A stretch of 42,783 nucleotides of DNA from Candidatus Eisenbacteria bacterium (GTDB taxonomy: Bacteria > Eisenbacteria > RBG-16-71-46). The notes beneath the pieces were generated by a model. It saw only the letters and a program-made list of their open reading frames with translations, searched no databases and was not told where the DNA came from. Position numbers and translations under genes: made by a program. The DNA lies in contig JABFRW010000006.1 of the NCBI GenBank assembly GCA_013140805.1, forward strand, positions 1 through 42,783. The letters are read 5' to 3'. Positions 6,346-42,167 of the stretch are shown here, piece by piece; within the stretch, counting starts at the first letter, position 1, and every line of letters begins with the position of its first letter.

Positions 6346-6359
6346 GTCAGCTCCCGCGG

Positions 6360-9966: not shown

Positions 9967-9978
9967 GAAACGAGCCCC

Positions 9979-11702
<1,724 letters not shown>

Positions 11703-11703
<1 letters not shown>

Positions 11704-12965: not shown

Positions 12966-13101
12966 CGAACGCAAACGGCGATCAACCTCGCACGGAACGA
13001 GGCGAATCGTCTCCAACGGAAGTCAGCCGGCCGCATGGATGCGCCGCCGGAAACGTCACCTCGAGGAGAGCCAACACCCTCGCGGAGGAGGAGCAGAACT
13101 C

Positions 13102-13521: not shown

Positions 13522-13564
13522 CACTCGGCACAACTCGATGCTCATCGTGCTCGTGACCCAAGAC

Positions 13565-14547: not shown

Positions 14548-15833
14548 CCCCACGACTTCGCCATCCGAGGGCCGGACAGCACGGCTTCATGCTCGTTGGC
14601 GTGATCATGTTCGCGCTCATCCTGAGCATTCTCGGCCTGTCGCTGTTCAGCCTCTCGAGCTTCGAGTCACAGTTCTTCTTCAAGTCCTACGACCGGACGC
14701 AATCTCTGCAGAGTGCGATCGGCGGAATTCAGCAGGCGCGCTACGTGTTGGCTTCGACCGCCGACTTGAGCCGGGTGGGCCAGAACCTGCCGAGCAATCA
14801 GGTCATCTGGGCGCGTGCCAAGCAGGGCGCGGACTACGACTCGGGCGACTCGACCGGAAACCTGAGCGGCGGCGGTGGACCGATCTGGATTCGCGCGCTC
14901 GCGGAAGTGAACGGCGAGCGTCAGCTGGTCGAGGCGCGTTTCAACTACAGCCCCGGGAACGAGATCTACAAGCGGCTCATGACGCTCACCGGAGATCTGA
15001 GCGTCGCCGTCACCGATTCGGGGGGTACCAACCGAATCAACCAGACCGTACTCGAGGGAGAGATCTGGAAGCTCGGTGGCTCCCCGGGGCCGTGGCCGAC
15101 GGGTTGCCTCCCCGAGGTTCGCCCCGCGGGCAGCATTCCAACTCCGGATGTCGAGGGCTCGTGGTGGTCCTCTCGGTATGGCTCGGCGACGTTCGTGCTT
15201 GCGACACCCGGAGCGCTTCCGAACGATCGCGTCTGGAATTTGAATCTCAGTAGCGGATTGACCTACTACAAGACCGAGGACGGGCTCTCGCCGGAATGGA
15301 GTCTCTACCGAACCAACGCGGGACGTGCCGAGATTCGAGTGACTGGGACCGCGGTGTGGTTGCTCAAGGACGGACTCCGAATCGAGCCGTGCGCGAGAAT
15401 CGTGGGGAGCGGACCCGGCGTCGCCACGCTGATCATCGTGACGCGACCGCTGCCGGGACGGACCGGAGATGAGGCGAATGTCGGAACGCTGTTCTACGGC
15501 GGAATCGAGACCTCGAACTGCAACCTGATCCTGGTCTCGAGCGGAACGGTCAAGCTCGAACACGACCTTTCGAATCAGGACGGCGATCTGGGCGTCACGT
15601 CCGACTATCTGTCGATCTTCGCGCAGAACTGCCGAGTCATGGGCACGTGGGCGATCGGGAGCTACGCGAACTTGCGATACACTCACGCGGTCGGCGACGC
15701 TCGCGACGACGCCGGAGAGTTGATCGACGACCTGATCGAACAGGGAGCGCTCCCGAATGGGTCGTCGTCGGGTCCGACCCGACTGGATCTCGTGGCCGGC
15801 TCCTGGCGCCAGCTCCAGCCACCGCTGAACTAG
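14544..15833 (+). CDS. Large PilX-like minor pilin
   Basis: This 429-residue protein has an N-terminal prepilin-like signal HG/FMLVGVIMFALILSILG. It is preceded by a basic leader and has no glutamate at +5, where Gly stands. This fits PilX/GspK-type proteins, which sit at the pilus tip and for which E5 is dispensable. The exported part (about 40-429) is far larger than a normal PilX (about 170-200) and contains several Tyr/Trp-rich beta segments and four or more cysteines. I recognise no enzyme or binding domain. The start overlaps the previous stop (ATGA). A tip adhesin role is an inference. Confidence 0.72.
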   Translation: MTPRLRHPRAGQHGFMLVGVIMFALILSILGLSLFSLSSFESQFFFKSYDRTQSLQSAIGGIQQARYVLASTADLSRVGQNLPSNQVIWARAKQGADYDSGDSTGNLSGGGGPIWIRALAEVNGERQLVEARFNYSPGNEIYKRLMTLTGDLSVAVTDSGGTNRINQTVLEGEIWKLGGSPGPWPTGCLPEVRPAGSIPTPDVEGSWWSSRYGSATFVLATPGALPNDRVWNLNLSSGLTYYKTEDGLSPEWSLYRTNAGRAEIRVTGTAVWLLKDGLRIEPCARIVGSGPGVATLIIVTRPLPGRTGDEANVGTLFYGGIETSNCNLILVSSGTVKLEHDLSNQDGDLGVTSDYLSIFAQNCRVMGTWAIGSYANLRYTHAVGDARDDAGELIDDLIEQGALPNGSSSGPTRLDLVAGSWRQLQPPLN

Positions 15834-15846
15834 TTCGAAGGAACGA

Positions 15847-16899
15847 ATGAGATCAGGGCTGCGATCCCGGCCGTGGGCCGGCCTCGATGTCGGCAATTTC
15901 AGCGTCAAGCTGCTCGCCCTGCAGGGAGGCGTGGGTGGCATGCGTCACTGGATCGCGGAGGTTCCGCTCCCTCCGCGCGGAGCCGACGGAAGCCGCACGC
16001 CCGAGACGCTCGCGCACGTCATCAACGAGGCGTTCTCGCTCGCCGGTCTCGCCGTTCGAACGGTGCGCGGGATTTCGCTCGGCATCTCGGGACCGGACGT
16101 GATCGTCAAACAGATCACGCTCCCGCTCCTCGATGACTCGGAAGTCGGCCCCGCGCTGCGCTTCGAGGCCCGCAAGCATCTGCCCTTCGACTTGAGCGCG
16201 ATGAATCTCGATTTTCAGATCCTGGGGCGCTTCCCCAGTGAGCGAAAACTCGAGATCCTGCTCGCGGCGGTCTCGCACGATCACATGCAGCGGCACCTCG
16301 CGCCGCTCAACCTGCTCGGGCTCGAACCGGACGTGCTCGACGCCACTCCGCTCGCCCTCGCGAACGCCTTGATGTATGGAACCGAGCTCGAGACTGGCGC
16401 TCACCTGCTGCTCGACATGGGCGAGGATTTCTCGCACCTGGTCCTCTATCAGCGCGGCCAGCCGTTCTTCAGTCGGCGCCTCGACTTTGGTGGGCGACAC
16501 CTCACCGACGCGATCGCGCGTGGCATTCGGGTGCCGTTCTCCGAGGCCGAAGAGTGGAAGCTGGCGGCGGGCGCGGACGAGCCCGGATTGCGAGTGGACT
16601 GGGACTCGTCGGAGATGCGCGCCGTGCTCGAAGCAATTCGAACCGTGCTGGTCGAGGAGCTTCGGCGGTCGATCGCGTTCTATCGCACGCAGGGGACGCT
16701 GCCGGAGTCGCTCCGTATCTCGATCTCGGGTGGCTCGGCGCGACTGCCAGGCCTCGCGGCACGCATGTCCGAGTTGTTGGGTTCGCCGGTTTCGCTGCTC
16801 AATCCGATTCAGCAGATCCTCGGACAGAACTCCGCGGATGCCTCGCTCTCAGGGCCGCAATTTGCTCAGGCGTTCGGACTCGCATTGAGGAACCAATGA
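15847..16899 (+). CDS. pilM: PilM actin-like assembly protein
   Basis: This 350-residue cytoplasmic, FtsA/actin-fold protein binds the N-terminal tail of PilN and couples the inner-membrane alignment complex to the ATPases. Recognisable parts are WAGLDVGNFSVKLLAL (phosphate-1 loop), the PilM-typical RFEARKHLPFDLSAMNLDFQ, the LLDMGEDFSHL loop (phosphate-2) and ISISGGSARLPGLAARMSEL (adenosine-side motif). The length matches PilM. An AAGGA ribosome site precedes the ATG, and the stop overlaps the PilN start. Confidence 0.93.
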   Translation: MRSGLRSRPWAGLDVGNFSVKLLALQGGVGGMRHWIAEVPLPPRGADGSRTPETLAHVINEAFSLAGLAVRTVRGISLGISGPDVIVKQITLPLLDDSEVGPALRFEARKHLPFDLSAMNLDFQILGRFPSERKLEILLAAVSHDHMQRHLAPLNLLGLEPDVLDATPLALANALMYGTELETGAHLLLDMGEDFSHLVLYQRGQPFFSRRLDFGGRHLTDAIARGIRVPFSEAEEWKLAAGADEPGLRVDWDSSEMRAVLEAIRTVLVEELRRSIAFYRTQGTLPESLRISISGGSARLPGLAARMSELLGSPVSLLNPIQQILGQNSADASLSGPQFAQAFGLALRNQ

Positions 16900-17474
16900 G
16901 TCCCGTGTTCACGATCAACTTTCGGCGCGAGGCGTATCAGCGCGAACAGGCTCGGGCCCGACAGCGCCTGTTTCAGCTCGGCGGCTGGCTGGCTTACTTC
17001 GGCGTGCTCGCGGTGGTCATCGGACTGTATGGCCTGAACTGTGGCGCACTCATCAGCCGTACTCGGCAGGTCGAGCGACTCGTCGAGCGCGCGGCGCGGA
17101 CTCCGGGCGCTTCGCCGGAGTGGCGCGTCGAAGGGACCACTCTGGTGGCGGTCGAGTCGTTTCGCGCCAGCGCGCCGCGCTGGCGTCAGCGTCTGATTCG
17201 GCTGGCCGAGCTGTTGCCGCCGACCGCCGCGCTGTCGACGATCGAAGCCAATCCCGAGAACACGCAACTGGACGCCGATCGGAATCGCCTGGTGATCACC
17301 GGGTTCATTCGGGTCCCGGCAGGGCAGGATCGCATGCGCCCGGTCGCCGACTTGATCGCGCGCCTGCGCGGGGACTCGCTGTTCGCGACCGGGTATTCGT
17401 CCATTCGTTTGTCCTCAAGCCGCGCCGTCGAAGCTTCCAATCCGGAGACTGAATTCGTGATCGAGTGCCGCTAG
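16896..17474 (+). CDS. pilN: PilN inner-membrane alignment protein
   Basis: This 192-residue bitopic protein has a conserved short cytoplasmic start (SPVFTINFRREAY, the PilM-binding I-N-L/F-x-P/R type motif), one membrane helix at about 28-50, then a coiled-coil-like stretch and a ferredoxin-like periplasmic domain. It forms a heterodimer with PilO. It overlaps PilM by ATGA, and the PilO start lies at or within its stop. It is identified mainly from position between PilM and PilO-like genes and from its topology. Confidence 0.85.
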   Translation: MSPVFTINFRREAYQREQARARQRLFQLGGWLAYFGVLAVVIGLYGLNCGALISRTRQVERLVERAARTPGASPEWRVEGTTLVAVESFRASAPRWRQRLIRLAELLPPTAALSTIEANPENTQLDADRNRLVITGFIRVPAGQDRMRPVADLIARLRGDSLFATGYSSIRLSSSRAVEASNPETEFVIECR

Positions 17475-18028
17475 TGAACACCCTCCTCCTCCAACAGCTC
17501 CGCCGCCACTGGCAGATCGTCGCGGCGGCGACTCTGTTGCTCGCCTTCCTCGCGACGCACTTCATGATCTTTCATCCGGCGCGCACGCGCCTCGAGCACG
17601 CGACGACGCGAGCGCAGTCGATGCGCGTGACGCTCGACCCGGACCGTCAGCCCGTGCTGGTGCCCCCGCGGGTCGTGGCGCTGTTTGCCGAGAACTCATT
17701 GACGACCGCGCGCGCCGTCGAGCTGGGCAATTCCGGTGAGCTGACGGCCGATCTCCTGTCGGAAGCATCCGAGATCGCGAATCGATGCGGCATGGACGTG
17801 CTCACCACCGAACCGGGCGCCGCGGCGCAGCAGGGCGAGGCGGTGCAGGTTCGAGCGCGCCTGACCGCGCGCGCGGACTACTCGGACCTGGTCCGATTCA
17901 TGGATGCGATTTCGCGCAGTCCACGTCTCATCGCGGTGGACCATTTCGTGTTGAAAGGCTCGGGCCGCAGCGTGTGCGAGTTGTCGATCGTGCGCTACGT
18001 GCTCAAGCGCTCGGGGAGCCGTTCGTGA
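17474..18028 (+). CDS. pilO: PilO-like inner-membrane alignment protein
   Basis: This 184-residue bitopic membrane protein has a short N-terminal tail, one transmembrane helix (about 17-35: VAAATLLLAFLATHFMIF) and a periplasmic region with a helical segment and a ferredoxin-like end (DYSDLVRFMDAISRSPRLIA), as in PilO/GspM. I chose GTG at 17474, which overlaps the PilN stop; GTG at 17465 would add three residues. Sequence conservation in PilO is weak, so gene order supports the call. The stop overlaps the PilP start (GTGA). Confidence 0.83.
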   Translation: MNTLLLQQLRRHWQIVAAATLLLAFLATHFMIFHPARTRLEHATTRAQSMRVTLDPDRQPVLVPPRVVALFAENSLTTARAVELGNSGELTADLLSEASEIANRCGMDVLTTEPGAAAQQGEAVQVRARLTARADYSDLVRFMDAISRSPRLIAVDHFVLKGSGRSVCELSIVRYVLKRSGSRS

Positions 18029-18516
18029 GTCCGGGCCCGCAGCGCGTTCTGGCGCTCGCGATCGGCGCCATCGCGCTGGCCGTCATCGGGCTGCAGACTT
18101 CCGAAGCCCTGCGCGCCGCCGGACCCTGGCGCCCCCGCGCCGCCAAGCCCACGGCGGTCTCGGCACCCTATGCTCGCCTCGAGCGCGTCCTGGCACAGGC
18201 CGAGTCCGGCGAGGTCCCCTCGACGTTGCGCGACCCGTTCAGCTACGGTGCGGCGCGTCCGATCGTCCCCACCGGGCCGACGACTCCGCGCATCGTGCGA
18301 CCGTCGAAGCCGGTCGCCCCTCCCGCACCAGTCGTCACCGCGATCGTGAGCGACGCCGACCCCCGCGCGATTCTCGTCTTCGAAGGTCGCAACTACATGG
18401 TCAAGCCCGGCGATTCGTTCGCGGGCTTTCAGGTCATCAGCATGACTCCCGAATCCGTGGTGCTGGAGTCGAACGGCCAGCGGCTCGTGATTCGACTCGC
18501 GTCGAAAGGAGAATGA
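18025..18516 (+). CDS. pilP: PilP-like periplasmic protein linking PilNO to the secretin
   Basis: This 163-residue protein has an N-terminal hydrophobic segment (about 6-24, possibly an uncleaved anchor; no lipobox Cys, unlike proteobacterial PilP). A Pro-rich linker follows, then a C-terminal beta domain resembling the PilP/GspC homology region (TAIVSDADPRAILVFEGRNY, VKPGDSFAGFQVISM, ESNGQRLVIRL). Such domains contact the secretin N0/N1 domains. It starts with GTG inside the PilO stop and overlaps the PilQ start by four bases. Confidence 0.83.
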   Translation: MSPGPQRVLALAIGAIALAVIGLQTSEALRAAGPWRPRAAKPTAVSAPYARLERVLAQAESGEVPSTLRDPFSYGAARPIVPTGPTTPRIVRPSKPVAPPAPVVTAIVSDADPRAILVFEGRNYMVKPGDSFAGFQVISMTPESVVLESNGQRLVIRLASKGE

Positions 18517-19784
18517 GCGTGAACCACTTCGTGCGCTGCCTGCGCGTTCTCATGATCGCGTCGGCCGCCGTTCTATTCGCACTTCCCGCCTCGGTTCACG
18601 CCGCGGGCGACCTGGATCGCCCGATCACACTGCAAGCCGACAACACCTCGATTCCCGCGCTGCTCAGGATTCTGGCCGAAAAGGGCGGCCTGAACATCGT
18701 GACGGGGCCAGGCGTCACCGAGGCCCGGATCTCGATCAGTATCCGGGACGTGCCGGTCGATCAAGCGGTCAACCTGGTGGTACGCGCGGCCGGCCTCGCC
18801 TATGAGCGCATCGGTAACTCGATCCTCGTTGCTTCGCCCGAGGCGCTCAAGCAGGAGTCGGGGCTGAGCACGTACATCGTGGAACTCAAGTTCGCCGGCG
18901 CCGACGAGGTGCGTGAGGCGCTTCAGGACCTGTGCAAAGAAATTCAGATCGACAAGAGCGGCAATCGGCTGATCGTCAAGACGAGCCCGCGCGTGATCTC
19001 CGAGATCAACGAAGTCGTCCGCATCATGGACGTCCCTGCACAGCAGGTGATGCTGGAGGCGCGCATCATCGAAGTGTCGACCGATGACCTGAAGACGCTC
19101 GGCATCGACTGGGACAAGCTGAATCGCCAGACCGCCGTGATTGTCGAGGGGCCGATCCCCGGCAGCACTCCTCCCGATGTGGGCCCCGCCAATCTGGGCT
19201 ATCAGAAGATCGGCGAGCAGATCAAGTACGGACCCTGGAATCGCCAGAACGACATGTTCCAGATCGCCCTCGACCTCCTGGTTCGCGATGGTCGAGCCCG
19301 CGTTCTCGCGACTCCTCGCATCGCGACGCTCAACGGCAAGGAAGCGTCCATGCTGATCGGGCGCCGCATTCCGTACGTGGTGACCGGCACCGTGTTCGCC
19401 GGCGGCGCTGCCGCGCCGACCCAGCGCGTCGAGAAGGAAGAAGTCGGCGTCAAGCTGCGCATCACGCCGCTCATCAACGCCGACGGATACATCACCACCA
19501 CGATCTCGCCCGAAGTCAGCTCAGTGACCGGCTTCGTGGGTCAGAACAACGACCTCCCGATCGTCTCGACACGACAGGCCACGACCACGGTGCGCCTCAA
19601 GGACGGCGACTCCGTGATCATCGGTGGGCTGCTTCAGGAAGACGAGACGAAGAACGTCACTCGGATTCCGATTCTCGGGGACATCCCGGGACTCGGATTG
19701 TTGTTCCAGCACCACAACTACACGCTCACCAAGCGCGATCTCGTCATCGAGGTCACGCCGCGCATCCTGCCGGAGAAGAAGTAG
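18513..19784 (+). CDS. pilQ: PilQ outer-membrane secretin
   Basis: This 423-residue secretin has a signal peptide (cleavage near SVHAA). An N0/STN-type domain (about 36-110: ITLQADNTSIPALLRILAEK ... SILVAS) is followed by an N1 secretin domain (about 115-175: TYIVELKFAGADEVREAL ... EVVRIMDVP). The secretin core (about 180-420) carries VLATPRIATLNGKEA and the signature VRLKDGDSVIIGGLL with IPILGDIPGLGLLF. It is short compared with proteobacterial PilQ (about 700) because no AMIN peptidoglycan-binding domain precedes N0. It is the last gene of the continuous pilus operon. Confidence 0.95.
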   Translation: MSVNHFVRCLRVLMIASAAVLFALPASVHAAGDLDRPITLQADNTSIPALLRILAEKGGLNIVTGPGVTEARISISIRDVPVDQAVNLVVRAAGLAYERIGNSILVASPEALKQESGLSTYIVELKFAGADEVREALQDLCKEIQIDKSGNRLIVKTSPRVISEINEVVRIMDVPAQQVMLEARIIEVSTDDLKTLGIDWDKLNRQTAVIVEGPIPGSTPPDVGPANLGYQKIGEQIKYGPWNRQNDMFQIALDLLVRDGRARVLATPRIATLNGKEASMLIGRRIPYVVTGTVFAGGAAAPTQRVEKEEVGVKLRITPLINADGYITTTISPEVSSVTGFVGQNNDLPIVSTRQATTTVRLKDGDSVIIGGLLQEDETKNVTRIPILGDIPGLGLLFQHHNYTLTKRDLVIEVTPRILPEKK

Positions 19785-25863: not shown

Positions 25864-25869
25864 ATTATA
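25864..25869 (-). promoter_or_regulatory. Consensus -10 element close to the DUF3142 start
   Basis: TATAAT is read on the reverse strand at 25869-25864, only 9 bases upstream of the ATG at 25854. No good -35 box stands 16-18 bases further upstream. If it is used, the mRNA would be nearly leaderless for the ATG at 25854, or have a leader of about 40 bases for the ATG at 25815. Confidence 0.5.
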
Positions 25870-25930
25870 GTCGCCGACCTTCCGCGTGGCGCCGCCCCTG
25901 CGTCGTGCCCCCTCGACCGGAGTCCATCCC

Positions 25931-27982
25931 ATGCCCGATCGCCCTGTTCTTCACGCCCGCATTCGCCGGCTGTTCGTGGCCGCGACACTGTTCGTGCTCG
26001 CGGCCTCGCAGCCGGAGTCGGCGGCCTCCAAGCCGATCGATCCGCTCAACCTGGATCCGTCGGTCTCGCCCGGCCTCGACTTCTATCGCTTTGCGAACGG
26101 GGGTTGGATCGACCGCAATCCGGTGCCGGCCGATGAGAGCCGCTGGGGCTCGTTCGCGGTGCTCGCGAAGAGCAACCAGGATCTGCTGCGCTCGGTGCTC
26201 GAAGAAGCGGCACGCACCCGGTCGGCGCCGCACGGCAGCACGATTCAGCGCGTCGGCGACCTGTATGCGAGTGCGATGGACTCGGTGCGGGCCGAGATCG
26301 ACGGCGCCCGCCCGCTGGCCGGCGAACTGAAGTCGATCGCCCGCATCTCGGATCGCGACCAGCTGCTGGATGCGATCGCTCATCTGCAGACGCTGGGCCT
26401 TCGCGCACCGTTCGGCGTGTTCGCGGCCCCCGACGCCAAGCAGAGCACCGACGTGATCGTGCAGGTGTTCCAGGGCGGGCTCGGCATGCCGGACCGCGAC
26501 TACTACACCAAGACCGACCCCGCCTCGCAGAAGCTGCGCGATCAGTACGTCGCGCACATGGGCCGCATGTTCCGGATGCTGGGCGGTGACTCCACGGCGG
26601 CCGCGGCGCAGGCGGCGGCGGTGATGAAGATCGAGACCGAACTCGCGAACGCCTCGCTGACGCGCGTTCAGCGGCGCGACCAGGAGGCGAACTACCACAA
26701 GATGACGCTCGATTCGCTCGCGTCGCTCACCCCCAATCTGTCGTGGATCCGGCTCTACGAGGGCATGGGGATCGCGGATCGGCGCGCGCTCAACGTGGGG
26801 CAGCCCGAGTTCGTGAAGCAGCTCGACCGAATGATCGCGAGCGTGCCGATCGAGGACTGGAAATCGTACCTGCGCTGGAACGTGTTGCGCAGTTCCGCGG
26901 AGTACCTGAGCAGTGCCTTCGTGAACGAGAACTTCGACTTCTTCCAGCGTGCCCTGAGTGGAACCAGCGAGATGCGTCCGCGCTGGCGGCGCGCGCTGCT
27001 CACCGTCGATCGCAGCATCGGTGAGGCGCTCGGCGAGCTGTACGTCGCGCGGACCTTCAAGCCCGAAGCGAAGCTGCGAGTCGAGGCGATGGTCGAGAGC
27101 CTGCGGGTCGAGCTGCGCGAGCGCATCCAGACCCTCGACTGGATGGGCCCCCAGACCAAGCAGCAGGCGCTCGCCAAGCTCGAGGCATTCGCGGTCAAGA
27201 TCGGCTACCCCGCCCAGTGGCGTGACTACTCCGGACTCGAGATCGATCGCGGACCGCTGGTGCTGAACGTGATGCGCGCCCAACAGTTCGAATACCGGCG
27301 CAACATCGCCAAGCTCGGTCGCCCGGTCGATCGCAAGGAATGGAGCATGACGCCGCCGACGGTGAACGCGTACTACAACTCGCGCTTCAACGAGATCGTG
27401 TTCCCGGCCGGCATCCTGCAGCCGCCGTTCTTCGACGCGGAGGCCGACGACGCGGTCAACTACGGCGGCATCGGCTCGGTGATCGGGCACGAGCTGACGC
27501 ACGGCTTCGACGACCAGGGCCGCAAGTCGGACGCGGTCGGAAACCTGCGCGACTGGTGGACACCCGAGGACGCGAAGCGCTACGAGGAGCGCTCGTCGAA
27601 GGTCGAACGCCAGGCGAGCCGCTTCGTGGTGATCGACACGCTCAAGATCAACGGCAAGCTCACGCTCGGCGAGAACCTCGCGGACCTCGGCGGCGTGAGC
27701 ATCGCGTACGGCGCCCTGCAGCGTTCGCTCGCGAACAAGCGCATGCCGAAGATCGACGGCTTCACGCCCGCGCAGCGGTTCTTCCTCGCCTACGCGCAGC
27801 TGTGGCGTCAGAACGTGCGCGACGCGCAGGCGAAGCTGCTGCTGAACACCGATCCGCACGCACCGGGAGTGTTTCGAACCAATGGACCGCTCTCGAACCT
27901 GCCCGAGTTCGCGGACGCGTTCGGTCTCGAGGCGGGCGCGCCCATGGTGCTTCCGGAAGCGGAGCGCGCCCGCATCTGGTGA
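25931..27982 (+). CDS. M13-family (neprilysin-like) zinc metallopeptidase
   Basis: This 683-residue exported endopeptidase of the PepO/neprilysin family cuts peptides in the periplasm or outside the cell. It has a signal segment (about 10-28), then the M13 N-terminal helical domain starting with DPSVSPGLDFYRFANGGWID. The catalytic domain has the zinc motif HELTH (H520, E521, H524) within VIGHELTHGFDDQG, and the downstream glutamate ligand in ENLADLGG (E581, D585). NAYYNSRFNEIVFPAGILQPP is the substrate-binding segment. The C-terminus ends ARIW, lacking the usual Cys of C-x-x-W. The ATG at 25931 opens the signal peptide. It ends 15 bases before a convergent sulfurtransferase gene. All catalytic residues are present. 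Confidence 0.95.
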   Translation: MPDRPVLHARIRRLFVAATLFVLAASQPESAASKPIDPLNLDPSVSPGLDFYRFANGGWIDRNPVPADESRWGSFAVLAKSNQDLLRSVLEEAARTRSAPHGSTIQRVGDLYASAMDSVRAEIDGARPLAGELKSIARISDRDQLLDAIAHLQTLGLRAPFGVFAAPDAKQSTDVIVQVFQGGLGMPDRDYYTKTDPASQKLRDQYVAHMGRMFRMLGGDSTAAAAQAAAVMKIETELANASLTRVQRRDQEANYHKMTLDSLASLTPNLSWIRLYEGMGIADRRALNVGQPEFVKQLDRMIASVPIEDWKSYLRWNVLRSSAEYLSSAFVNENFDFFQRALSGTSEMRPRWRRALLTVDRSIGEALGELYVARTFKPEAKLRVEAMVESLRVELRERIQTLDWMGPQTKQQALAKLEAFAVKIGYPAQWRDYSGLEIDRGPLVLNVMRAQQFEYRRNIAKLGRPVDRKEWSMTPPTVNAYYNSRFNEIVFPAGILQPPFFDAEADDAVNYGGIGSVIGHELTHGFDDQGRKSDAVGNLRDWWTPEDAKRYEERSSKVERQASRFVVIDTLKINGKLTLGENLADLGGVSIAYGALQRSLANKRMPKIDGFTPAQRFFLAYAQLWRQNVRDAQAKLLLNTDPHAPGVFRTNGPLSNLPEFADAFGLEAGAPMVLPEAERARIW

Positions 27983-30245: not shown

Positions 30246-31835
30246 CTAACGCCTCCGGCCGTCACGCGCGGGCTTGGGACGCCGCCCGTGCGATGCAGCA
30301 GGCTTCGCGTGTCCGCCCGAGCGCGATTCTCCGGCCGGCTTCGACTCGCCGGACGACGACCGACCGGTCGCCGCATGCGAGCTGCGACCGCGCGCCGGAG
30401 CGGCGGTGTCGCGGGCGTGCGACGCACGCGCCGGAGCACCTTCGCGACTCGCGCTGCGCCGAACGCGACCACGTTCCTCGCGAGGTTCGCGCGCACCACC
30501 GCGCCCTCCACCGGCGTTCGCACCGCGCGGCGGAGCCACGCGGCCGTAGTCGAAATCGCTCAGCTTGCGGCGCGTGACCTTGTGCCCGATGTGACGCTCG
30601 ATCGCATTCGCGTCCTTCTCTTCCTCGGGGCTCACCAGCGTCAGCGCATCGCCGGTCGAGTGCATGCGACCGGTGCGGCCGATGCGGTGCACGTAGTCCT
30701 CGGGTGACAGCGGCACGTCGAAGTTGATGACGTGCGTGACGTCGGTCACGTCGATGCCCCGCGAGGCGATGTCGGTCGCCACCAGAATGTCCACCCGACC
30801 GCGGCGGAACTTGAGCATGGTGCGCTCGCGCTGACCCTGGCTGCGATCGCCGTGCAGCACGTCGGCGTCGAGACCGCGATCATGCAGGATGCGGGTCAGC
30901 CGGTCCGCTCCGCGCTTGGTGCGCGCGAACACGATCGTGCTGCCGCGTTCGGCACGCTGCAGGATTTCTTCGAGCAGGTTCGCCTTCAAGTGGCGCGAGA
31001 CCGGATAGAACGCCTGCGAGACCGATTCCACCGGCTTGGAAGGCGGCGAGATCTCGAGTCGCTGCGGCTTGTTCAGCGCTTCGCTCGCGACCTTGTTCAG
31101 CTCGGTCGGCATGGTGGCGGAGAACATCAGCGTCTGACGATGGCTCGGAAGCAGATGCAGGATGCGCCGCAGGTCGGGGGCAAACCCCATGTCGACCATG
31201 CGATCGGCTTCGTCGAGCACCAGAACTTCGACGTCCTGAAGGCTGACGCTTTGACGGCCGTTGAGGTCCAGCAGGCGTCCGGGAGTGGCGATCAACAGGT
31301 CCACGCCCTCGTGCCTGAGCACGCGCTCCTGCGGTCCGATCGGCACGCCGCCGTAAACGGATGCCACGCGAATGCCGGTGTGACGCGCGTATTTCTGCGC
31401 CGCCTGCTCGACCTGCGCCGCGAGTTCACGAGTCGGCACCAGAACCAGGCCACGCAGCCGGTCCCCGGCGGTCAGCAACCGGACCAGGATCGGAAGCAGA
31501 AATGCGGCAGTCTTGCCGCTGCCGGTCTGAGCGGCCGCGACCAGATCGCGGCCGGGAAGAATGAGCGGAATCGCGCGAGCCTGGATCGGCGTCGGATTCT
31601 CGTAGCCGACCGAGCGGAGGTTGCGGACCAGTTTCTCGGGAAGTCCGAGCGATTCGAAGGTGACGCTGGTGGTCACCGATGCGTTCCGCGTACCCGCCGG
31701 ACGTCGCGGCGCAGGAGCCGCATGACTGGGTGCAGCGACCGCGTGTTTCGTTGCGGAGGCTGCGTGACTTGAAGCGGCGGAGGTCGATTTCGTCGCGCGT
31801 TCGCGCTCGCCTCCGCGTTTCGTGTGGGGACTCAT
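30246..31835 (-). CDS. rhlE: DEAD-box ATP-dependent RNA helicase (RhlE-type)
   Basis: This 529-residue helicase remodels structured RNA, for example in ribosome assembly or mRNA decay. After a 58-residue Ala/Ser/His-rich tail, the core shows the Q motif (FESLGLPEKLVRNLRS ... NPTPIQ), Walker A AQTGSGKT, PTRELA, TPGRLLD, DEAD, SAT, then ATDIASRGIDV and HRIGRTGR. All motifs are intact. The C-terminal 110 residues are a low-complexity Arg/Gly/Ser/Ala tail that probably binds RNA. Basic tails on both sides are longer than usual for RhlE. The start may lie anywhere in the low-complexity tail; ATG at 31835 is the first. It lies 22 bases after the YebC gene on the same strand. Confidence 0.93.
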   Translation of the reverse strand: MSPHTKRGGERERATKSTSAASSHAASATKHAVAAPSHAAPAPRRPAGTRNASVTTSVTFESLGLPEKLVRNLRSVGYENPTPIQARAIPLILPGRDLVAAAQTGSGKTAAFLLPILVRLLTAGDRLRGLVLVPTRELAAQVEQAAQKYARHTGIRVASVYGGVPIGPQERVLRHEGVDLLIATPGRLLDLNGRQSVSLQDVEVLVLDEADRMVDMGFAPDLRRILHLLPSHRQTLMFSATMPTELNKVASEALNKPQRLEISPPSKPVESVSQAFYPVSRHLKANLLEEILQRAERGSTIVFARTKRGADRLTRILHDRGLDADVLHGDRSQGQRERTMLKFRRGRVDILVATDIASRGIDVTDVTHVINFDVPLSPEDYVHRIGRTGRMHSTGDALTLVSPEEEKDANAIERHIGHKVTRRKLSDFDYGRVAPPRGANAGGGRGGAREPREERGRVRRSASREGAPARASHARDTAAPARGRSSHAATGRSSSGESKPAGESRSGGHAKPAASHGRRPKPARDGRRR

Positions 31836-31857
31836 GCCATTCCTTCCACCCGGCGTC

Positions 31858-32580
31858 TCAGGCCAGGTTGTGAAACACCTTTTGCACGTCGTCGTCCTGC
31901 TCCAGCAGGTCCACGAGTTTCATGACTTCGGTCGCCTGCGCTTCGGGCAGTTCGATCGGAGTCGTCGCGATGTACTCGGACTCGGCGGAGAGCGGCACGA
32001 GCTTGCGGTCCTCGAGGGCCTTCTGAAGTTGCCCGAAGTCGGCGAACGCGCAACGGACTACCAGCTGCGCCTCGCCCTTCTCTCCGGTGCTCTCGCCCAT
32101 TTCGTCGAGACCGTGATCGATCAGATCGAGTTCCAGGGCTTCGGGTTCGAGGCCCTCGGGTTTCAAGCGGAAGACACCCATGCGCTTGAACTGGAACGCC
32201 ACGCTTCCGGTGCTGCCGAGGTTTCCGTTGCCCTTGTAGAGGCGACTGCGGATGCTTCCGGCAGTGCGGGTGACGTTGTCGGTCGCGGCCTCGATCAGGA
32301 TCGCGACTCCATGTGGTGCGTACGCTTCGTAGACGATTTCCTCGTAGTTCGCCTGGTCGTTGCCGAGCGCGCGCTTGATCGCGGCCTCGACCTTGTCCTT
32401 CGGCATGTTGACCTGCCGCGCGTTCTGAATGACGCGCCGCAGGGTGGAATTGTCGTCGGGATTCGGGCCACCGGCCCGCACCGCGATCGCGATCTGCTTG
32501 CCGACACGCGCAAACGCCTTGGACATGCGGTCCCAGCGGGCGAACATGACGTGTTTGCGTGCTTCGAAAATGCGTCCCAT
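31858..32580 (-). CDS. yebC: YebC/PmpR (TACO1) family protein
   Basis: This 240-residue cytoplasmic protein of the YebC family was long annotated as a transcription regulator; recent work describes family members as ribosome-bound factors that relieve stalling at proline runs. The N-terminus [19 protein letters not shown] differs slightly from the E. coli type (MAGHSKWAN) and is the form I associate with the other family branch. The core has [55 protein letters not shown] and [19 protein letters not shown]. The C-terminal domain ends in [14 protein letters not shown]. The length is typical. The helicase gene follows closely, and both may serve translation. Confidence 0.95.
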
Positions 32581-32881
32581 GGTCGATCCTGAGCCGGTGG
32601 CGTCCGTCGGGGTCGGCGCGCACCTGGCAGCGCCACAATCGGGGCGACCCGCCGGGGGTGGCGAGGTCGGTCTGGGACGCAGTGTGACCCGAGACGGCCC
32701 TTCGAGACAAGGCGGCCCGAGCGCCGAATTCGCCTTGCGGCGTCATTGCGGGCCGATTCTGCCAGTTCTCGCTATCGACTCGTCGGGGTCGGCCGGTAGA
32801 CTTGGTGCATCGTTTTGCCCGTTTGGGCCGTCATCCTTCCGCTACGACGCCGCGCTCCCCGCTTCGACCGAGGACTCACTC
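32581..32881. other. Divergent intergenic region
   Basis: About 300 bases separate the yebC start (reverse) from the repeat-protein start (forward). A possible -10 TAGACT stands at 32797-32802 without a good -35 box. GAGGA precedes the forward ATG. I see no gene, terminator or recognisable RNA here. Confidence 0.5.
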
Positions 32882-35800
32882 ATGCGCTTCGCTCCCCCGC
32901 TTCGCGTGATGCTCGCCCTGTGCTCTCTGCTCGCGACCGCGGCTCCGGCCGCCTTCGCTGCCGGACCCCTCACCTCGGGAACGGTGGTCAGCGGCACGAT
33001 CGCGGGACCCACCTTTACCGAGACTTGGACTTTTTCCGGCAGCAACGGTCAACGCGTCCTCATCAGCGCGGTGACGACCAGCGGAGCCCCGAACACGAGC
33101 ATCGTCCTGAGAGCTCCGGGAGGAACCGTGACCTGGAACAGCTCCGCCGACCGGCTCGACTTTCAGCTCACGGCCAACGGGACGTGGACGGTTGAGATTT
33201 CGGACGTCGGACTCAATGACGCGGGCGGCTACAGCATTGGTTTCGTGAACCTGACGATCGGTCCCTATACCTCGGGCGGTGATCTGGACGGTGGGGCGAT
33301 CGTCTCGGCCGAGATCAAGACCGGGAGCAACGCGGCGATCGGTGACTTCGACGTGTTCACGTTCTCCGGGACGGCCGGCCAGCGCATCGCGTTCGCGGCG
33401 GTCGAGACCAGCGCGGCGAGCTACAACACCGTGATCACGATCTACCCGCCGGGCGGTGGCAACTTCGAGGCCTCGGTCAACTCCAACCGGCTCGATCATC
33501 AGCTGCTGGCGACCGGCACCTACACCGCGGTGGTCGAGGACTTCGCGAACGACCACACCGGCACCTACACACTCTCCTATCTCAACGTCACCGCCGGGCC
33601 ATTCACGATCGCCGGCGATCTGGATGGCGGCCCGATCGCTTCGAACGAGATCAAGACCGGTACCGTGAGCGGGGTCGGCGACATGGACGCGTTCACGTTC
33701 TCGGGGACATCGGGCCAGCGCGTCCTGTTCGTGGGTGTGGCGACCGGTGGCGCGATGAACAGCCAGCTGTGGCTCTACCCGGCAGGTGGTGGCCCTCCGA
33801 TCTACATCAGCACCGCCGACCGCGCGGATGTGCAACTGAACGCCACCGGCACCTGGACGGCACTCATCGAAGACGCCGCCAACGACCAGGGTGGCAACTA
33901 CTCGGTCTCGTTCATGAACGTGAGCGCCGGGCCGTTCACCTCGGTCGGTGACCTCGACGGTGGCGCGATCGTCTCGGCCGAGATCAAGACCGGCAACAAC
34001 ACCGGCATCGGCGACATCGACGCGTTCACGTTCTCCGGAGTCGCCGGCCAGCGCATCGCGTTCGCGGCGGTCGAGACCAGTGCGGCGAGCTACAACACGG
34101 TGGTCACGATCTACCCGCCGGGCGGTGGCAACTTCGAGGCCTCGGTCAACTCCAACCGGCTCGATCATCAGCTGCTGGCGACCGGCACCTACACCGCGGT
34201 GGTCGAGGACTTCGCGAACGACCACACCGGCACCTACACACTCTCCTATCTCAACGTCACCGCCGGGCCATTCACGATCGCGGGCGATCTGGATGGCGGC
34301 CCGATCGCTTCGAACGAGATCAAGACCGGTACCGTGAGCGGGGTCGGCGACATGGACGCGTTCACGTTCTCGGGAACCACGGGCCAGCGCGTCCTGTTCG
34401 TGGATGTGGCGACCGGTGGCGCGATGAACAGCCAGCTGTGGCTCTACCCGGCCGGTGGTGGCCCGCCCATCTATGTCAGCTCGGCCGACCGCGCGGATGT
34501 GCAACTGAACGCCACCGGCACCTGGACGGCACTCATCGAAGACGCCGCCAACGATCAGGGCGGCAGCTACTCGGTCTCGTTCATGAACGTGAGCGCCGGG
34601 CCATTCACCTCGGTCGGCGACCTCGATGGCGGTGCGATCGTCTCGGCCGAGATCAAGACCGGCAACAACACCGGCATCGGCGACATCGACGCGTTCACGT
34701 TCTCCGGGACGGCCGGCCAGCGCATCGCGTTCGCGGCGGTCGAGACCAGCGCGGCGAGCTACAACACCGTGATCACGATCTACCCGCCGGGCGGTGGCAA
34801 CTTCGAGGCCTCGGTCAACTCCAACCGGCTCGATCATCAGCTGCTGGCGACCGGCACCTACACCGCGGTGGTCGAGGACTTCGCGAACGACCACACCGGC
34901 ACCTACACACTCTCCTATCTCAACGTCACCGCCGGGCCATTCACGATCGCCGGCGATCTGGATGGCGGCCCGATCGCTTCGAACGAGATCAAGACCGGTA
35001 CCGTGAGCGGGGTCGGCGACATGGACGCGTTCACGTTCTCGGGGACATCGGGCCAGCGCGTCCTGTTCGTGGGTGTGGCGACCGGTGGCGCGATGAACAG
35101 CCAGCTGTGGCTCTACCCGGCAGGTGGCGGCCCGCCCATCTATGTCAGCTCGGCCGACCGCGCGGATGTGCAACTGAACGCCACCGGCACCTGGACGGCA
35201 CTCATCGAAGACGCCGCCAACGATGAGAGCGGCAGCTACTCGGTCTCGCTGATGAACGTCTCGGCGGGTCCCCACACCTCGGGCGGAGATCTGGATGGCG
35301 GCGCAATCGTGTCGGGCGGCACCAGGCTCGGCAACAACACCGGCGTCGGCGACTTCGACGCATACACGTTCACGGGCACCCTCGGTCAACGCGTGGTCTT
35401 CAGCGCGGTCGAGACCAGTGCGGCGAGCTACAACACCGTGGTCACGATCTACCCGCCGGGCGGTGGCAACTTCGAGGCCTCGGTCAACTCCAACCGGCTC
35501 GATCATCAGCTGCTGGCGACCGGCACCTACACCGCGGTGGTCGAGGACTTCGCCGGTGACCACACCGGCACCTACAACCTCGCGTTCGTGAACGTCACGA
35601 CCGGCATCTTCACCTCCGCCACCGATCCCAACGGTGGAGTCGTGACCTCGGGTGCCGCCCGCAGCGGCTCGATCTCGCCGATCGGCGACCTCGACGTGTA
35701 CTCGTTCCACGGCACCAGCGGGCAGACCGCGCAGATCGGCGCCGTCACCACCTCGGGGCTGCTGAATACCGAGATCTGGATCTATCCGCCCGGCGGCGGA

Positions 35801-36256
35801 CCCGCCACGGTCGCGACCTCGACCGACAACGTCAGCTATCCGCTGACCGCGACCGGGTATCACATGGTGATGATCGAGGACGCGGGACTCAACGACACCG
35901 GCAACTACAACTTCACGCTCTCGGGCACCCTCACGAACGTGGACATCCCGGAAGGGCCGATCGCGTTGCTCGATCCGATTCGAGTCGTGATGCGCCCGCC
36001 GTTCCCGAATCCGTTCGCACGCGATGCCGCACTCACCTACTCGCTGCCCGCGCGACTGCCGGTGCGGATGCGAATCTTCGACCTGCAGGGAGCGCTGGTG
36101 CGCACGCTGGTGGACGGGATGATCGAGCCGGGCGTACGGACGGCTTCATGGGATGGCTCGAACGACCGTGGTGAACGGATGGTCTCGGGCGTCTACTTCG
36201 CCGAACTCACTGCCGGCGGCGAAACGGTGCGCCACAAGCTGGTGCGGATGCGGTAG
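32882..36256 (+). CDS. Giant secreted repeat protein with FlgD-like sorting domain
   Basis: This 1124-residue exported protein has a signal peptide (about 1-27, cleavage near AAFAAG). Nine beta-rich modules of about 111 residues follow. The first is divergent (about 29-126), modules 1-7 (127-907) are very similar, and the last (908-1020) is divergent. Each module reads like a pre-peptidase C-terminal (PPC)-type sandwich: GDLDGGAI, DVFTFSGTAGQR, TIYPPGGG, LDHQLLATGTYTA, VVEDFANDHTGTYTL. Modules alternate between two types, A (112 residues) and B (111). The C-terminal 85 residues form a FlgD-like domain beginning FPNPF (1041) with TASWDGSNDRGERMVSGVYF. I infer a surface filament or adhesin. It is transcribed alone; a hairpin follows the stop. 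The start follows GAGGA. Confidence 0.85.
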   Translation: MRFAPPLRVMLALCSLLATAAPAAFAAGPLTSGTVVSGTIAGPTFTETWTFSGSNGQRVLISAVTTSGAPNTSIVLRAPGGTVTWNSSADRLDFQLTANGTWTVEISDVGLNDAGGYSIGFVNLTIGPYTSGGDLDGGAIVSAEIKTGSNAAIGDFDVFTFSGTAGQRIAFAAVETSAASYNTVITIYPPGGGNFEASVNSNRLDHQLLATGTYTAVVEDFANDHTGTYTLSYLNVTAGPFTIAGDLDGGPIASNEIKTGTVSGVGDMDAFTFSGTSGQRVLFVGVATGGAMNSQLWLYPAGGGPPIYISTADRADVQLNATGTWTALIEDAANDQGGNYSVSFMNVSAGPFTSVGDLDGGAIVSAEIKTGNNTGIGDIDAFTFSGVAGQRIAFAAVETSAASYNTVVTIYPPGGGNFEASVNSNRLDHQLLATGTYTAVVEDFANDHTGTYTLSYLNVTAGPFTIAGDLDGGPIASNEIKTGTVSGVGDMDAFTFSGTTGQRVLFVDVATGGAMNSQLWLYPAGGGPPIYVSSADRADVQLNATGTWTALIEDAANDQGGSYSVSFMNVSAGPFTSVGDLDGGAIVSAEIKTGNNTGIGDIDAFTFSGTAGQRIAFAAVETSAASYNTVITIYPPGGGNFEASVNSNRLDHQLLATGTYTAVVEDFANDHTGTYTLSYLNVTAGPFTIAGDLDGGPIASNEIKTGTVSGVGDMDAFTFSGTSGQRVLFVGVATGGAMNSQLWLYPAGGGPPIYVSSADRADVQLNATGTWTALIEDAANDESGSYSVSLMNVSAGPHTSGGDLDGGAIVSGGTRLGNNTGVGDFDAYTFTGTLGQRVVFSAVETSAASYNTVVTIYPPGGGNFEASVNSNRLDHQLLATGTYTAVVEDFAGDHTGTYNLAFVNVTTGIFTSATDPNGGVVTSGAARSGSISPIGDLDVYSFHGTSGQTAQIGAVTTSGLLNTEIWIYPPGGGPATVATSTDNVSYPLTATGYHMVMIEDAGLNDTGNYNFTLSGTLTNVDIPEGPIALLDPIRVVMRPPFPNPFARDAALTYSLPARLPVRMRIFDLQGALVRTLVDGMIEPGVRTASWDGSNDRGERMVSGVYFAELTAGGETVRHKLVRMR
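33260..35602 (+). repeat. Three and a half tandem 669-bp units
   Basis: Within the giant repeat gene, the 669-bp A+B unit occurs at 33260-33928, 33929-34597 and 34598-35266, followed by a half unit (A-type) at 35267-35602. Unit halves are exactly 336 and 333 bases. Long stretches are base-for-base identical between copies, including synonymous sites, so the copies are recent or are kept alike by gene conversion. Differences are few and mosaic: IYISTADR in unit 1 but IYVSSADR in units 2 and 3, while FVGVATGG occurs in units 1 and 3 and FVDVATGG in unit 2. Confidence 0.92.
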
Positions 36257-38468: not shown

Positions 38469-41400
38469 ATGAACGCACCTCGGCGTCCACTGTTGATCAT
38501 GCTGCTCGTGCTCGCGTCACCGGTGCTCGCGGTTCGATTTGCCGACGCCGCGGAGCGCGAGCTTCCGGTCGCCTCCGCCACCAGCACCGGTGCCGTTGGG
38601 GTCGGCCAGTCGGTCGCGCAGATCATGCGGGCGCAGGCGGCCGTCGATGCGAGCGGACGCGCGCCCAAGGACATGGAGGGCGAAGTCGAGCAGCCGGACC
38701 GCTCGAACCTGCCGCAGAACCCCGCCTCGCCCGCGAGCCCCGCGGGTTCAGGACTGCCCTCGAACGGCAAGACCGACGCGAATCGCAATGGCCTGCTCAG
38801 CCCTCAGACGTTGGGAACCAACTTTACGGCCGCGACGCTCCAGGGGGTGAATCCCACCCTGTCGTTCCCGCCTGACGTGATGGGCGCGGTCGGGCCGAGT
38901 CAGTTCGTGACGTTCGTCAACGGTCGTCTCGTGACGTTCAACAAGTCGACCGGAGTCGCCGATGGCGTGCTCAACACGGATACCGACGTGTTCTTCAGTT
39001 CGGTGCTGGCCGGCTCGTCGACGAGCGATCCGCGCATTCGCTACGACCGGCTGAGCGCGCGCTGGATCCTCGTGATCATCTCGGTGAGCGTTCCGAATCG
39101 CATCCTGATCGCGGTCAGCGACGCGGCGAGCGCCGGCGTGATCACCCCGAGTACCGTCTTCACGCGCTTCTTCATCCCGATCGCTTCGACGCCGCCGACC
39201 ATCTCGAACACCTGCCTGGCGGACTACCCGACGCTCGGCGTGGACGCCGGCGCGCTGTACATCGGGACCAACAACTTCTGCGGCGCCTCGCTGACCTTCA
39301 ACAGCACCGACGGCTACGTCGTGCGCAAGAGTTCGGTGCTCGGCGCGGGTCCAATCGTGGTGACGGCGTTCCGAGGCCTGGTCGCGACCGCAGGTTCGAG
39401 CGGCCCCTACACGCCGCAGGGCGTCGACAACCTGGACCCCGCCGCAACCGAGGGCTACTTCATCGGAGTGGACAACCTGACGTTCGGCACGCTCATGTTC
39501 CGACGGGTCTCGAATCCCGCGGGCACACCCACGATCTCCGGCAACCTCTCGATCACGGTGCCGACCACGCGCTCGCCGATCCTGGTGCCGCACCTCGGCA
39601 ACAGCGGCGGCAACCCCGGGCGTCTCGATGCGCTCGACGATCGCCTGTTCGCGGCCCATCTGCGCAATGGCCGGCTGTGGACCGCGCACAACTTCGGAGT
39701 GACGAACACCGGAGCGACTTCCGGGACCGCGACGCGCAACGCCTCGCGCTGGTACGAACTCAATGTCCCGGTCGGCTCCGGCACGCCGACGCTGGTCCAG
39801 TCCGGCACCGTCTTCACCGCCTCCGGTTCGAATTCCACCGACCAGCGCCACTACTGGATCCCCTCGATCATGGTCTCGGGTCAGGGCCACGCGGCGATGG
39901 GCTTCAGCGTGGCGGGCACCAACGAGCGCGCGAACGCCGCGACGGTCGGGCGCCTCGCCGGCGATGCGCCGGGCACCATGCAGACACCGGTGCTGTTCAC
40001 GAGCAGCACCACGCCCTACAACCCGCCGAGCGATCCCGGCGGTTCCGGCGGACGACGCTGGGGCGACTACTCGTACACCAGCCTCGATCCGCTCGACGAC
40101 CAGACGATGTGGACCACGCAGGAGTTCTGCGACGCGAGCAACTCCTACGGGGTGCGCGTGGTGAAGCTCATCGCGCCGCCGCCCGCGACGCCCAGTACGA
40201 TCGCCAACGTCACCGAAGGCCAGAACCCGGCGAACGTGACGCTCACCGGCGCGTCGATCGCGGGCTCGGGCTTCTGGGATCCGGGCACGAATCTGCCGGG
40301 GGTTCCGCCTTACGCACACGTGGCGGCGAGCGTCGTGAACGGCGGCGCCACCGGCACCCCGCCGACCGTGGTCTCGGCCGTCTACGTGAATCCGACCACG
40401 CTTCAATTGACGCTCGACGCCTCGAGCGCGACCGCGAACCTGCCCGGCGAGAAGTACACGGTGCAGGTCACGAACCCCGACGGGCAGAGCACTTCCGCCG
40501 CGGTGCTGACGGTGGTGGACGGAACGCCGGTGGCCACCCTCGGCAGCGGAGTGACCCTCGACGAAGGCAACGCGGGCTCCACCCCTCTCGAGTTCACGGT
40601 CAACCTCTCGAGCCCGGCCGTCGCTTCGGTGGTGGTGCGCTATCAGACTTCGGACGGGACCGCGACCGTGAGCGACAACGATTACGTCGCCGTCACCGAC
40701 TCGATTACGATTCTGCCCGGCAACTCGAGCGGCCCGATCACTCTGAACGCGAACGGGGACACGCGGTTCGAAAACGGGGAGACCTTCGTGCTCACGCTCA
40801 CCTCGGCCACCCACGCGACGCTCGGCGCGACGGTCGCGGCAGCCGGCAGTCTCACCAACGACGACGCGCCACCGAGCCTCACGATCGACGACCTCGTACA
40901 GGCCGAGGGCGACGCCGACAGTGCTGCGTTCACGTTCACGCTCTCGCTCTCGACCGCGAGTGGGCTGCCGGTGTCCGCGGACTTCGCAACCGCCGACAGC
41001 ACCGCGACGACCCTCGATAGCGACTATCGAGCGACCAGCGGCAGCGTGAATTTCGCGGCGGACCAGCTCACGCAGAGCATCACCGTCTTCGCTTTTGGGG
41101 ATACGGTCCCCGAGGCGGACGAGGTGTTCAACGTCGTGCTCTCGAACCCTGCCGGGGCGTTGATGGCCGATTCGGTCGGACGTGGCGTGCTCGAGAACGA
41201 CGACGAGGCGCCCGCGCTCTCGATCGGCGACGTCATTGCGGTCGAGACCCAGTCGGGCTCGACCACGTTCGAGTTTCCGGTCACGCTGTCCTACGCCAGC
41301 GGACTTCCGGTCACGGTCGCCTACCAGACCTCCGACGGCAGCGCGACGATCGCGGACGGGGATTACGATGCCGTCTCGGACGTGCTCGTGATCCCGGCCC

Positions 41401-42167
41401 TGGCGCTCTCTGGTTCGATCAGCGTGACGATTCACGGCGACGCGTGCGGCGAGAGCGACGAGACCTTCGCGGTGACACTTGCCTCGCCGACCGCGGCGAC
41501 TCTCGCGGACGCGGTCGCCAGCGGCACGCTGCAGAACGACGACGACGCGATCGCGCCGAGCGTCGCCGTCACCGCCCCCAATGGCGCGGAGGTGCTGAGC
41601 GTCGGAACCTCGAGCGAGATCACCTGGAACGCCGCCGATGACGTCGCCGTGAGCTCCGTGGACGTGCTGCTCTCACGCGACGGCGGGACGAGCTATCCCG
41701 AAGCCCTCGCGACCGGAATCGCCAACACCGGTTCCTTCGCATGGAACGTCTCGCCTCCCACGGTCGCGGCCGGCGCGGCGTTCGTGCGAGTGGTCGCGCA
41801 CGACGCCGGCTGCAACGTGACTGTGGATTCGAGTGATGCGGGATTTGAGATCGTTGACGGCGTCACCGCGGTGACGCCGGTCGCGACCGTGACGGAGTTC
41901 GCGCTCGGCGCGGTGCATCCGAATCCGAGCCATGGCACCGCACGGGTCGACTACGAGCTGCCGCGCGAAGCCCACGTGCGCATGAGCGTCTTCGACATCC
42001 GGGGGCGCGAGGTGGCGAGGCTGGTCGACGGCAGGGCGGGTGCGGGGCGGCATCAGACGTCGTGGGACGGCAACTCCGGCGGCCGCCCTGCCGGTTCAGG
42101 CGTTTACTTCATGCGCTTTCGAGCCGGCGACCGCAACTTCCAGCGCCGCTTCGTACTCGCGCGGTGA
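38469..42167 (+). CDS. Giant secreted protein with propeller, TIG-like and Calx-beta domains and FlgD-like tail
   Basis: This 1232-residue exported protein has a signal peptide (about 1-28) and an N-terminal domain of about 450 residues of the kind opening PPDVMGAVGPSQFVTFVN and DPRIRYDRLSARWILV, probably a sialidase-like beta-propeller. A TIG/IPT-like region follows (about 575-685), then three Calx-beta calcium-binding domains (about 685-795, 800-905 and 910-1020), each with the pattern YQTSDGTA...DNDYVAV...GD...E-x-x-E-x-F. Next is an Ig-like module (about 1030-1125, SVDVLLSRDGGTSYPEAL). The C-terminal FlgD-like sorting domain has HPNPSHGT and SWDGNSGGRPAGSGVYF. This is likely a calcium-stabilised surface or released protein; an enzymatic role for the propeller is unproven. 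The stop overlaps the phosphatase start. Confidence 0.85.
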   Translation: MNAPRRPLLIMLLVLASPVLAVRFADAAERELPVASATSTGAVGVGQSVAQIMRAQAAVDASGRAPKDMEGEVEQPDRSNLPQNPASPASPAGSGLPSNGKTDANRNGLLSPQTLGTNFTAATLQGVNPTLSFPPDVMGAVGPSQFVTFVNGRLVTFNKSTGVADGVLNTDTDVFFSSVLAGSSTSDPRIRYDRLSARWILVIISVSVPNRILIAVSDAASAGVITPSTVFTRFFIPIASTPPTISNTCLADYPTLGVDAGALYIGTNNFCGASLTFNSTDGYVVRKSSVLGAGPIVVTAFRGLVATAGSSGPYTPQGVDNLDPAATEGYFIGVDNLTFGTLMFRRVSNPAGTPTISGNLSITVPTTRSPILVPHLGNSGGNPGRLDALDDRLFAAHLRNGRLWTAHNFGVTNTGATSGTATRNASRWYELNVPVGSGTPTLVQSGTVFTASGSNSTDQRHYWIPSIMVSGQGHAAMGFSVAGTNERANAATVGRLAGDAPGTMQTPVLFTSSTTPYNPPSDPGGSGGRRWGDYSYTSLDPLDDQTMWTTQEFCDASNSYGVRVVKLIAPPPATPSTIANVTEGQNPANVTLTGASIAGSGFWDPGTNLPGVPPYAHVAASVVNGGATGTPPTVVSAVYVNPTTLQLTLDASSATANLPGEKYTVQVTNPDGQSTSAAVLTVVDGTPVATLGSGVTLDEGNAGSTPLEFTVNLSSPAVASVVVRYQTSDGTATVSDNDYVAVTDSITILPGNSSGPITLNANGDTRFENGETFVLTLTSATHATLGATVAAAGSLTNDDAPPSLTIDDLVQAEGDADSAAFTFTLSLSTASGLPVSADFATADSTATTLDSDYRATSGSVNFAADQLTQSITVFAFGDTVPEADEVFNVVLSNPAGALMADSVGRGVLENDDEAPALSIGDVIAVETQSGSTTFEFPVTLSYASGLPVTVAYQTSDGSATIADGDYDAVSDVLVIPALALSGSISVTIHGDACGESDETFAVTLASPTAATLADAVASGTLQNDDDAIAPSVAVTAPNGAEVLSVGTSSEITWNAADDVAVSSVDVLLSRDGGTSYPEALATGIANTGSFAWNVSPPTVAAGAAFVRVVAHDAGCNVTVDSSDAGFEIVDGVTAVTPVATVTEFALGAVHPNPSHGTARVDYELPREAHVRMSVFDIRGREVARLVDGRAGAGRHQTSWDGNSGGRPAGSGVYFMRFRAGDRNFQRRFVLAR

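Follow-up and report, generated by a model that had tools for sequence, protein, structure and literature searches.

Organisation of the array gene and its surroundings

The window, i.e. the whole 42,783-nucleotide stretch of DNA that was analysed, belongs to a genome of the Candidatus Eisenbacteria phylum (3.80 Mb, 215 contigs, 96% complete). A gene containing a long tandem array was located at positions 32882-36256 (+). The mechanical ORF extends from 32429 to 36256 (+). As its first 151 codons partly overlap antisense yebC, the likely start is the ATG at 32882, which is preceded 7 nt upstream by a GAGGA sequence (32870-32874). Translation from this ATG to the stop at 36256 would yield a protein of 1124 aa. 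A signal peptide, MRFAPPLRVMLALCSLLATAAPAAFA (32882-32959, +), was identified by eye from the translation. Nine modules of 99-112 aa each (~111 aa) follow in the order M0-A1-B1-A2-B2-A3-B3-A4-C, and a C-terminal FlgD_ig/T9SS-type sorting domain completes the protein (35933-36253, +; PF13860 34.7 bits, cut-off 27; TIGR04183 33.6 bits, cut-off 23). Module borders were placed at the motif AGP[F/H]T. The first PPC module, M0, is divergent (32960-33256, +) and scored 25.9 bits for PF04151, exactly the cut-off. It is followed on the same strand by A1 (33257-33592), B1 (33593-33925), A2 (33926-34261), B2 (34262-34594), A3 (34595-34930), B3 (34931-35263), the half unit A4 (35264-35599) and the divergent last module, C (35600-35932).

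The yebC/TACO1 gene (31858-32580, -; PF01709 160.9 bits) lies in antisense orientation and overlaps the start of the mechanical ORF. A 304-aa frame at 31832-32746 (-) is a shadow frame around yebC that is interrupted by stops in several relatives. A 995-aa antisense frame (32876-35863, -) is open across the whole array, which probably results from high-GC codon use.

The original prediction of an in-frame tandem array at 33260-35602 was correct except for a 3-base shift, and we refined the register to 33257-35599. Three full A+B units (33257-33925, 33926-34594 and 34595-35263) with a start-to-start spacing of 669 are followed by A4. Over the 669 sites, 41 differences were counted between units 1 and 2, 40 between units 1 and 3, and 27 between units 2 and 3, such that the units are 94-96% identical at the DNA level. 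A lag scan from 60 to <1800 in steps of 3 gave self-identities of 67% at lag 669 and 59% at lag 1338, with ~34% at unrelated lags; Tandem Repeats Finder with periods limited to 500 reported no repeat. Protein identity was 91-98% among A1-A3, 95% among B1-B3, 79-81% between A4 and A1-A3, and 50-56% between A and B modules. The flanking modules are divergent, as had been predicted, with protein identities to the other modules of 39-46% for M0 and 35-40% for C. The most notable feature of the locus is that near-identical copies in the array are never adjacent.

Mosaic variation and probable exchange between copies

It had also been predicted that variants were shuffled between the copies, and our tests bear this out. 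The 53 variable sites fall into 14 runs compared to 35.3 in shuffles, and 0 of 20000 shuffles gave a value as low as 14. When only synonymous codons were considered, 11 runs were found versus 19.4 in shuffles (P = 0.0002). Differences for the pairs 1-2, 1-3 and 2-3 numbered 19, 22 and 5 at offsets 0-97, 13, 0 and 13 at offsets 98-532, and 9, 18 and 9 at offsets 533-668. As the pairwise differences change by segment, different stretches of the unit support different trees. A GENECONV-like permutation test was significant for all three pairs (P = 0.0015 for 1-2, 0/20000 for 1-3 and 0.019 for 2-3). A 435-bp tract of unit 1 (33355-33789, +) is identical to the corresponding tract of unit 3 (34693-35127, +), whereas unit 2 has 13 private differences there.

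Both ends of A4 are divergent from A1-A3, but the 112 bp between them (35442-35553, +) are identical in all four A copies (33435-33546, 34104-34215 and 34773-34884 in A1-A3). None of the 22 fourfold-degenerate sites within this block varies among the four A copies, compared to 15 of the 31 outside it (Fisher P = 9e-5). Concordant-run tests with A4 were significant for A2 (P = 0.0025) and A3 (P = 0.0033) but not for A1 (P = 0.78). Because protein-level constraint does not explain the silent-site identity of the 112-bp block, exchange between copies is its simplest cause.

We considered whether the mosaic could have arisen without exchange, from a single triplication followed by selection, on the protein or on an internal DNA or RNA signal, that differed along the unit. 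Constraint does operate on the array, as dN was lower than dS in each of the nine same-type (A or B) pairs. Moreover, the 112-bp block could in principle contain an overlapping signal, and the 995-aa antisense frame spans the array. However, constraint cannot account for the 435 bp over which units 1 and 3 are identical and unit 2 differs at 13 positions, nor for the reversed grouping of the units over the first 98 bp. The runs test restricted to synonymous codons also argues against this explanation, and an Rfam search of the window found no family. We therefore regard a history free of exchange as very improbable.

An assembly artefact was also considered, in which near-identical copies were collapsed or wrongly joined during short-read assembly and the path jumped from one copy to another wherever they are identical. 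The assembly consists of 215 contigs, the identical stretches of 112-435 bp would allow such switching, and the 435-bp tract exceeds a typical short read. On the other hand, the 53 variable sites and the private variants of each unit indicate that several distinct copies exist, and a block in which 0 of 22 fourfold sites vary among four copies is not a product of assembly. The same kind of two-module array is also present in G032, a genome of the same class assembled as a single contig. Thus, misassembly is an improbable source of the pattern. From these results we conclude that the mosaic fits intragenic recombination or gene conversion, in agreement with the original reading of duplication plus gene conversion, which is supported by the mosaic identity, the runs tests and the segment-wise conflict.

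The duplication had been described as recent. NG86 dS values were 0.11-0.18 among A1-A3, 0.095-0.13 among B1-B3, and 0.37-0.42 between these A modules and A4. As mean dS between units was 0.10-0.18, the units were not duplicated very recently and the claim is only half right: homogenisation of certain tracts does look recent. We conclude that a duplication of moderate age was followed by what looks like recent homogenisation of these tracts.

Predicted fold, export and proposed origin of the array

The A2-B2 pair was modelled with AlphaFold2 using an alignment of 14 module pairs from the window array and from L050, a distant homologue encoded in G032 (CP070702.1). The model had a mean pLDDT of 83.7 and a pTM of 0.81. 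Structural matches included the ColG collagen-binding domain (1nqj; Z 12.8, rmsd 2.0, 91 aligned), the B. anthracis collagenase PPC domain (5sv5; Z 12.6, rmsd 2.1, 100 aligned) and, tied with these two, the periplasmic lysozyme inhibitor PliG (4dzg; Z 13.4, rmsd 1.9, 100 aligned). As modelled, A2 and B2 both match the beta-sandwich fold of PPC (bacterial pre-peptidase C-terminal)/collagen-binding domains. PF04151 (cut-off 25.9) scored 20.6 bits on the whole protein and 84.2 bits on L050. Apart from M0, the modules A1 (18.9 bits) and A3 (15.1 bits) were listed, while A2, B1-B3, A4 and C were not; the A, B and C modules singly fall under the Pfam cut-off. A sequence search of PDB chains with E values up to 1 returned no match. 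The modules share their fold and size with the collagen-binding domains of clostridial collagenases (PF04151; 1nqj, 5sv5), and ColG, with two such domains in tandem (s3a-s3b), resembles the window array. In contrast to these collagenases, the window protein is without a protease and has nine modules in a row.

A glycine-cleavage T-protein domain was rejected. PF08669 (GCV_T_C) scored 30.4 bits on the whole protein, above its cut-off of 25.9. However, single modules gave 14-18 bits for A1-A3 and none for the rest, and the modelled fold matches PPC-like domains, which points to a summed chance match. The GCV_T_C match at 34667-34817 (+; residues 746-796) is thus likely to be a misleading annotation.

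The original prediction called the product a secreted protein. This is supported by the signal peptide, the TIGR04183 score and the fact that the genome also encodes proteins related to SprA and PorV; PF18962 reached 21.2 bits on the C-terminus, below its cut-off of 27. SprA_N was matched at 56 bits in a 2145-aa frame, and four PorV-like matches were found, three of them over the cut-off (PorV, 58.3 bits). The protein had 106 matches in its own genome, only two of which fall outside its C-terminal region. Together with SprA_N and PorV, these mostly C-terminal matches make a T9SS-like export route with many cargoes likely in this genome. T9SS cargo can be either cell-attached or released. We infer both export and a surface role from these sequence features, and the term surface protein used in the original prediction is to be read in this sense. 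Among the open-access papers searched, none was found on PPC domains with type IX secretion or on type IX secretion in Eisenbacteria.

Other secretion-related genes were observed in the window. A second T9SS-type protein, with three Calx-beta stretches and a TIGR04183 score of 36.8 bits, is encoded 2.2 kb downstream of the array gene (38469-42167, +). A cluster at 8842-19784 that includes T2SSE ATPases (8842-9966 and 9979-11703) and a secretin (18513-19784) is type IV pilus or type II secretion-like. The product of 4894-6882 (-) has a C-terminal LysM domain and a region that weakly resembles PorV, its 20.3 bits falling short of the cut-off.

Our preferred reading, to which we assign a probability of roughly 0.7, is that the gene encodes a T9SS-type secreted PPC-fold repeat protein whose A+B units were amplified by unequal crossing-over and whose tracts were overwritten by exchange, the product serving as an adhesive or structural string. 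An old A+B duplication followed by unequal crossing-over would have brought the array to its three and a half units, and tracts of 100-435 bp would keep being overwritten by gene conversion or further crossing-over, such that the copies evolve in concert. As 669 = 3 x 223, the length of the protein could be altered by whole A+B units with the frame intact, and copy number may change in this way, possibly between strains as originally predicted. With an unlike pair as the unit, gain or loss would keep neighbouring modules dissimilar. Once exported, the protein would most likely form a long chain of modules, located at the cell surface or beyond it, with an adhesive or structural role. Pfam and NCBIfam recognised no head or ligand-binding domain, and an adhesive or projecting role is therefore proposed rather than read from a known domain.

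Alternatively, each module might bind a ligand, either protein or polysaccharide, in which case the repeats would provide avidity rather than length or a stalk. Collagen-binding domains are among the best structural matches and a separate head domain was not found, but the fold by itself does not show binding. We consider binding by each module a tenable, though not a probable, function, and one that is compatible with the same evolutionary mechanism.

Distribution and comparison with other repeat arrays

The phylum set comprised 47 genomes, own genome included, and the family set 20; the genus is represented by this genome alone. In BLAST searches the array was present in 1 of the 20 family genomes, i.e. 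its own. As it is absent from the 19 others, no close orthologue supports a function. Unit DNA had a long match to this array alone among the 47 phylum genomes, other matches being 29-85 bases. The module profile found something in 15 of the 47, mostly single weak modules, and arrays of at least eight modules were present only in G000 and G032. In G022, from another family of the class, the N-terminus and first module are 53% identical and the contig ends there; contigs of this genome average ~4 kb, and the contig end is thus no evidence of a repeat. In a further contig (L055, G034:C13), positions 1-450 already belong to a PPC-like array within a 1320-aa frame, and a third array of the class may thus have been cut off at the contig start.

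The search for a horizontal or mobile origin was negative: none of 50,697 phage records matched at the DNA level (distant mode), and viral contigs contained no relative. The downstream hydrolase has relatives in seven of the 19 other family genomes. In the neighbourhoods of six of these seven (G012 excepted) the other neighbours found in the window were not present in order, and the only further matches were an L070 protein like that of 25865-27859 and a sorting-domain match in L068. As the neighbourhoods are not conserved, there is no empty insertion site to read.

The single-contig genome G032 (CP070702.1, Candidatus Eisenbacteria bin56; L050/L060) contains a distant array of eight alternating A/B PPC modules with a T9SS-type C-terminus, an arrangement like that of the window array. 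Among its modules 1-6 (numbered from 0), identity was 74-80% at the same parity and 58-65% at opposite parity, with the first and last modules being less regular. Its location on a single contig makes an assembly cause unlikely there. The G032 modules are only 25-29% identical to the window pairs and, unlike the window array, same-type copies at 74-80% are without near-identical DNA.

According to PMC8201768 and PMC9704523, Periscope Proteins (SasG/Aap E-G5, Rib, Sgo_0707) are secreted surface proteins with tandem repeats of high identity at the DNA level, for which length change through intragenic recombination has been proposed, as we propose for the window gene. The units of the window array, at 94-96% identity, are such repeats, and both the SasG repeat (E-G5) and the window repeat are two-domain units. 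However, the two domains of the window unit are homologous to each other but only 50-56% identical, and adjacent modules share just 38-56% protein identity, short of the high neighbour identity of Periscope Proteins. The window protein also differs in being without a recognised N-terminal head domain and in having a sorting domain of the T9SS type. The Periscope papers state that close similarity between neighbouring domains is normally disfavoured. According to Bjorklund et al. 2006 (PMC1553488), who also discuss aggregation, the unit in domain repeats most often consists of two domains. In that account several domains are added at a time, often in the middle of an array, as in the window; those repeats are mainly eukaryotic, whereas the window array consists of bacterial PPC modules with detectable exchange tracts.

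Alternation was compared across 13 arrays, consisting of the window array, L060 of G032 and eleven from plasmid records; six of the 17 plasmid records were left out, three from Leptolyngbya boryana that duplicate the L080 match and three whose match is confined to the C-terminal domain. Across these arrays 139 module pairs were at least 70% identical, of which 138 were at even distance and one was adjacent, the latter being the sole such pair of the Nonomuraea array (L063). Four of the 13 arrays (L061, L077, L078 and L080) had no pair at this level, and even-odd order tests fell short of 0.05 for these four and for L063. Since the query used to find the plasmid arrays was itself alternating, arrays of that type may be over-represented among them. 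The four from rhizobia resemble one another and do not count as independent; with per-module scores of only 0-16 bits on the A1 profile, they are not established as PPC. Given the possible query bias, the related arrays, the arrays lacking such pairs and the failed order tests, the even-distance pattern is a lead and not a rule. The Calothrix array (L062) had He_PIG matches besides PPC matches. On Rhizobium and Mesorhizobium plasmids (L064, L079, L081 and L082), Ig-like genes of very large size were observed, at 30-32 kb for the two with annotation, and their near-identical modules lie at even distances and are never adjacent.

It is conceivable, although doubtful, that bacterial beta-sandwich arrays of this kind regularly amplify an unlike pair, or a pair of pairs, and almost never juxtapose near-identical domains, thereby avoiding the misfolding cost to which Periscope Proteins are said to be exposed. 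If so, an unlike-pair unit would supply long near-identical DNA for recombination-driven length change without creating identical neighbours, and an even-distance pattern, if general, would be a testable rule reconciling recombination-prone repeats with the folding of neighbouring domains. Proteins are already known to lengthen by such copying, and among secreted repeat proteins this gene is a clear case but a rather ordinary one. The locus records copies that evolve in concert within a probable T9SS cargo gene from an uncultured phylum, and it shows cleanly how two homologous but unlike domains can together form the unit that is amplified.
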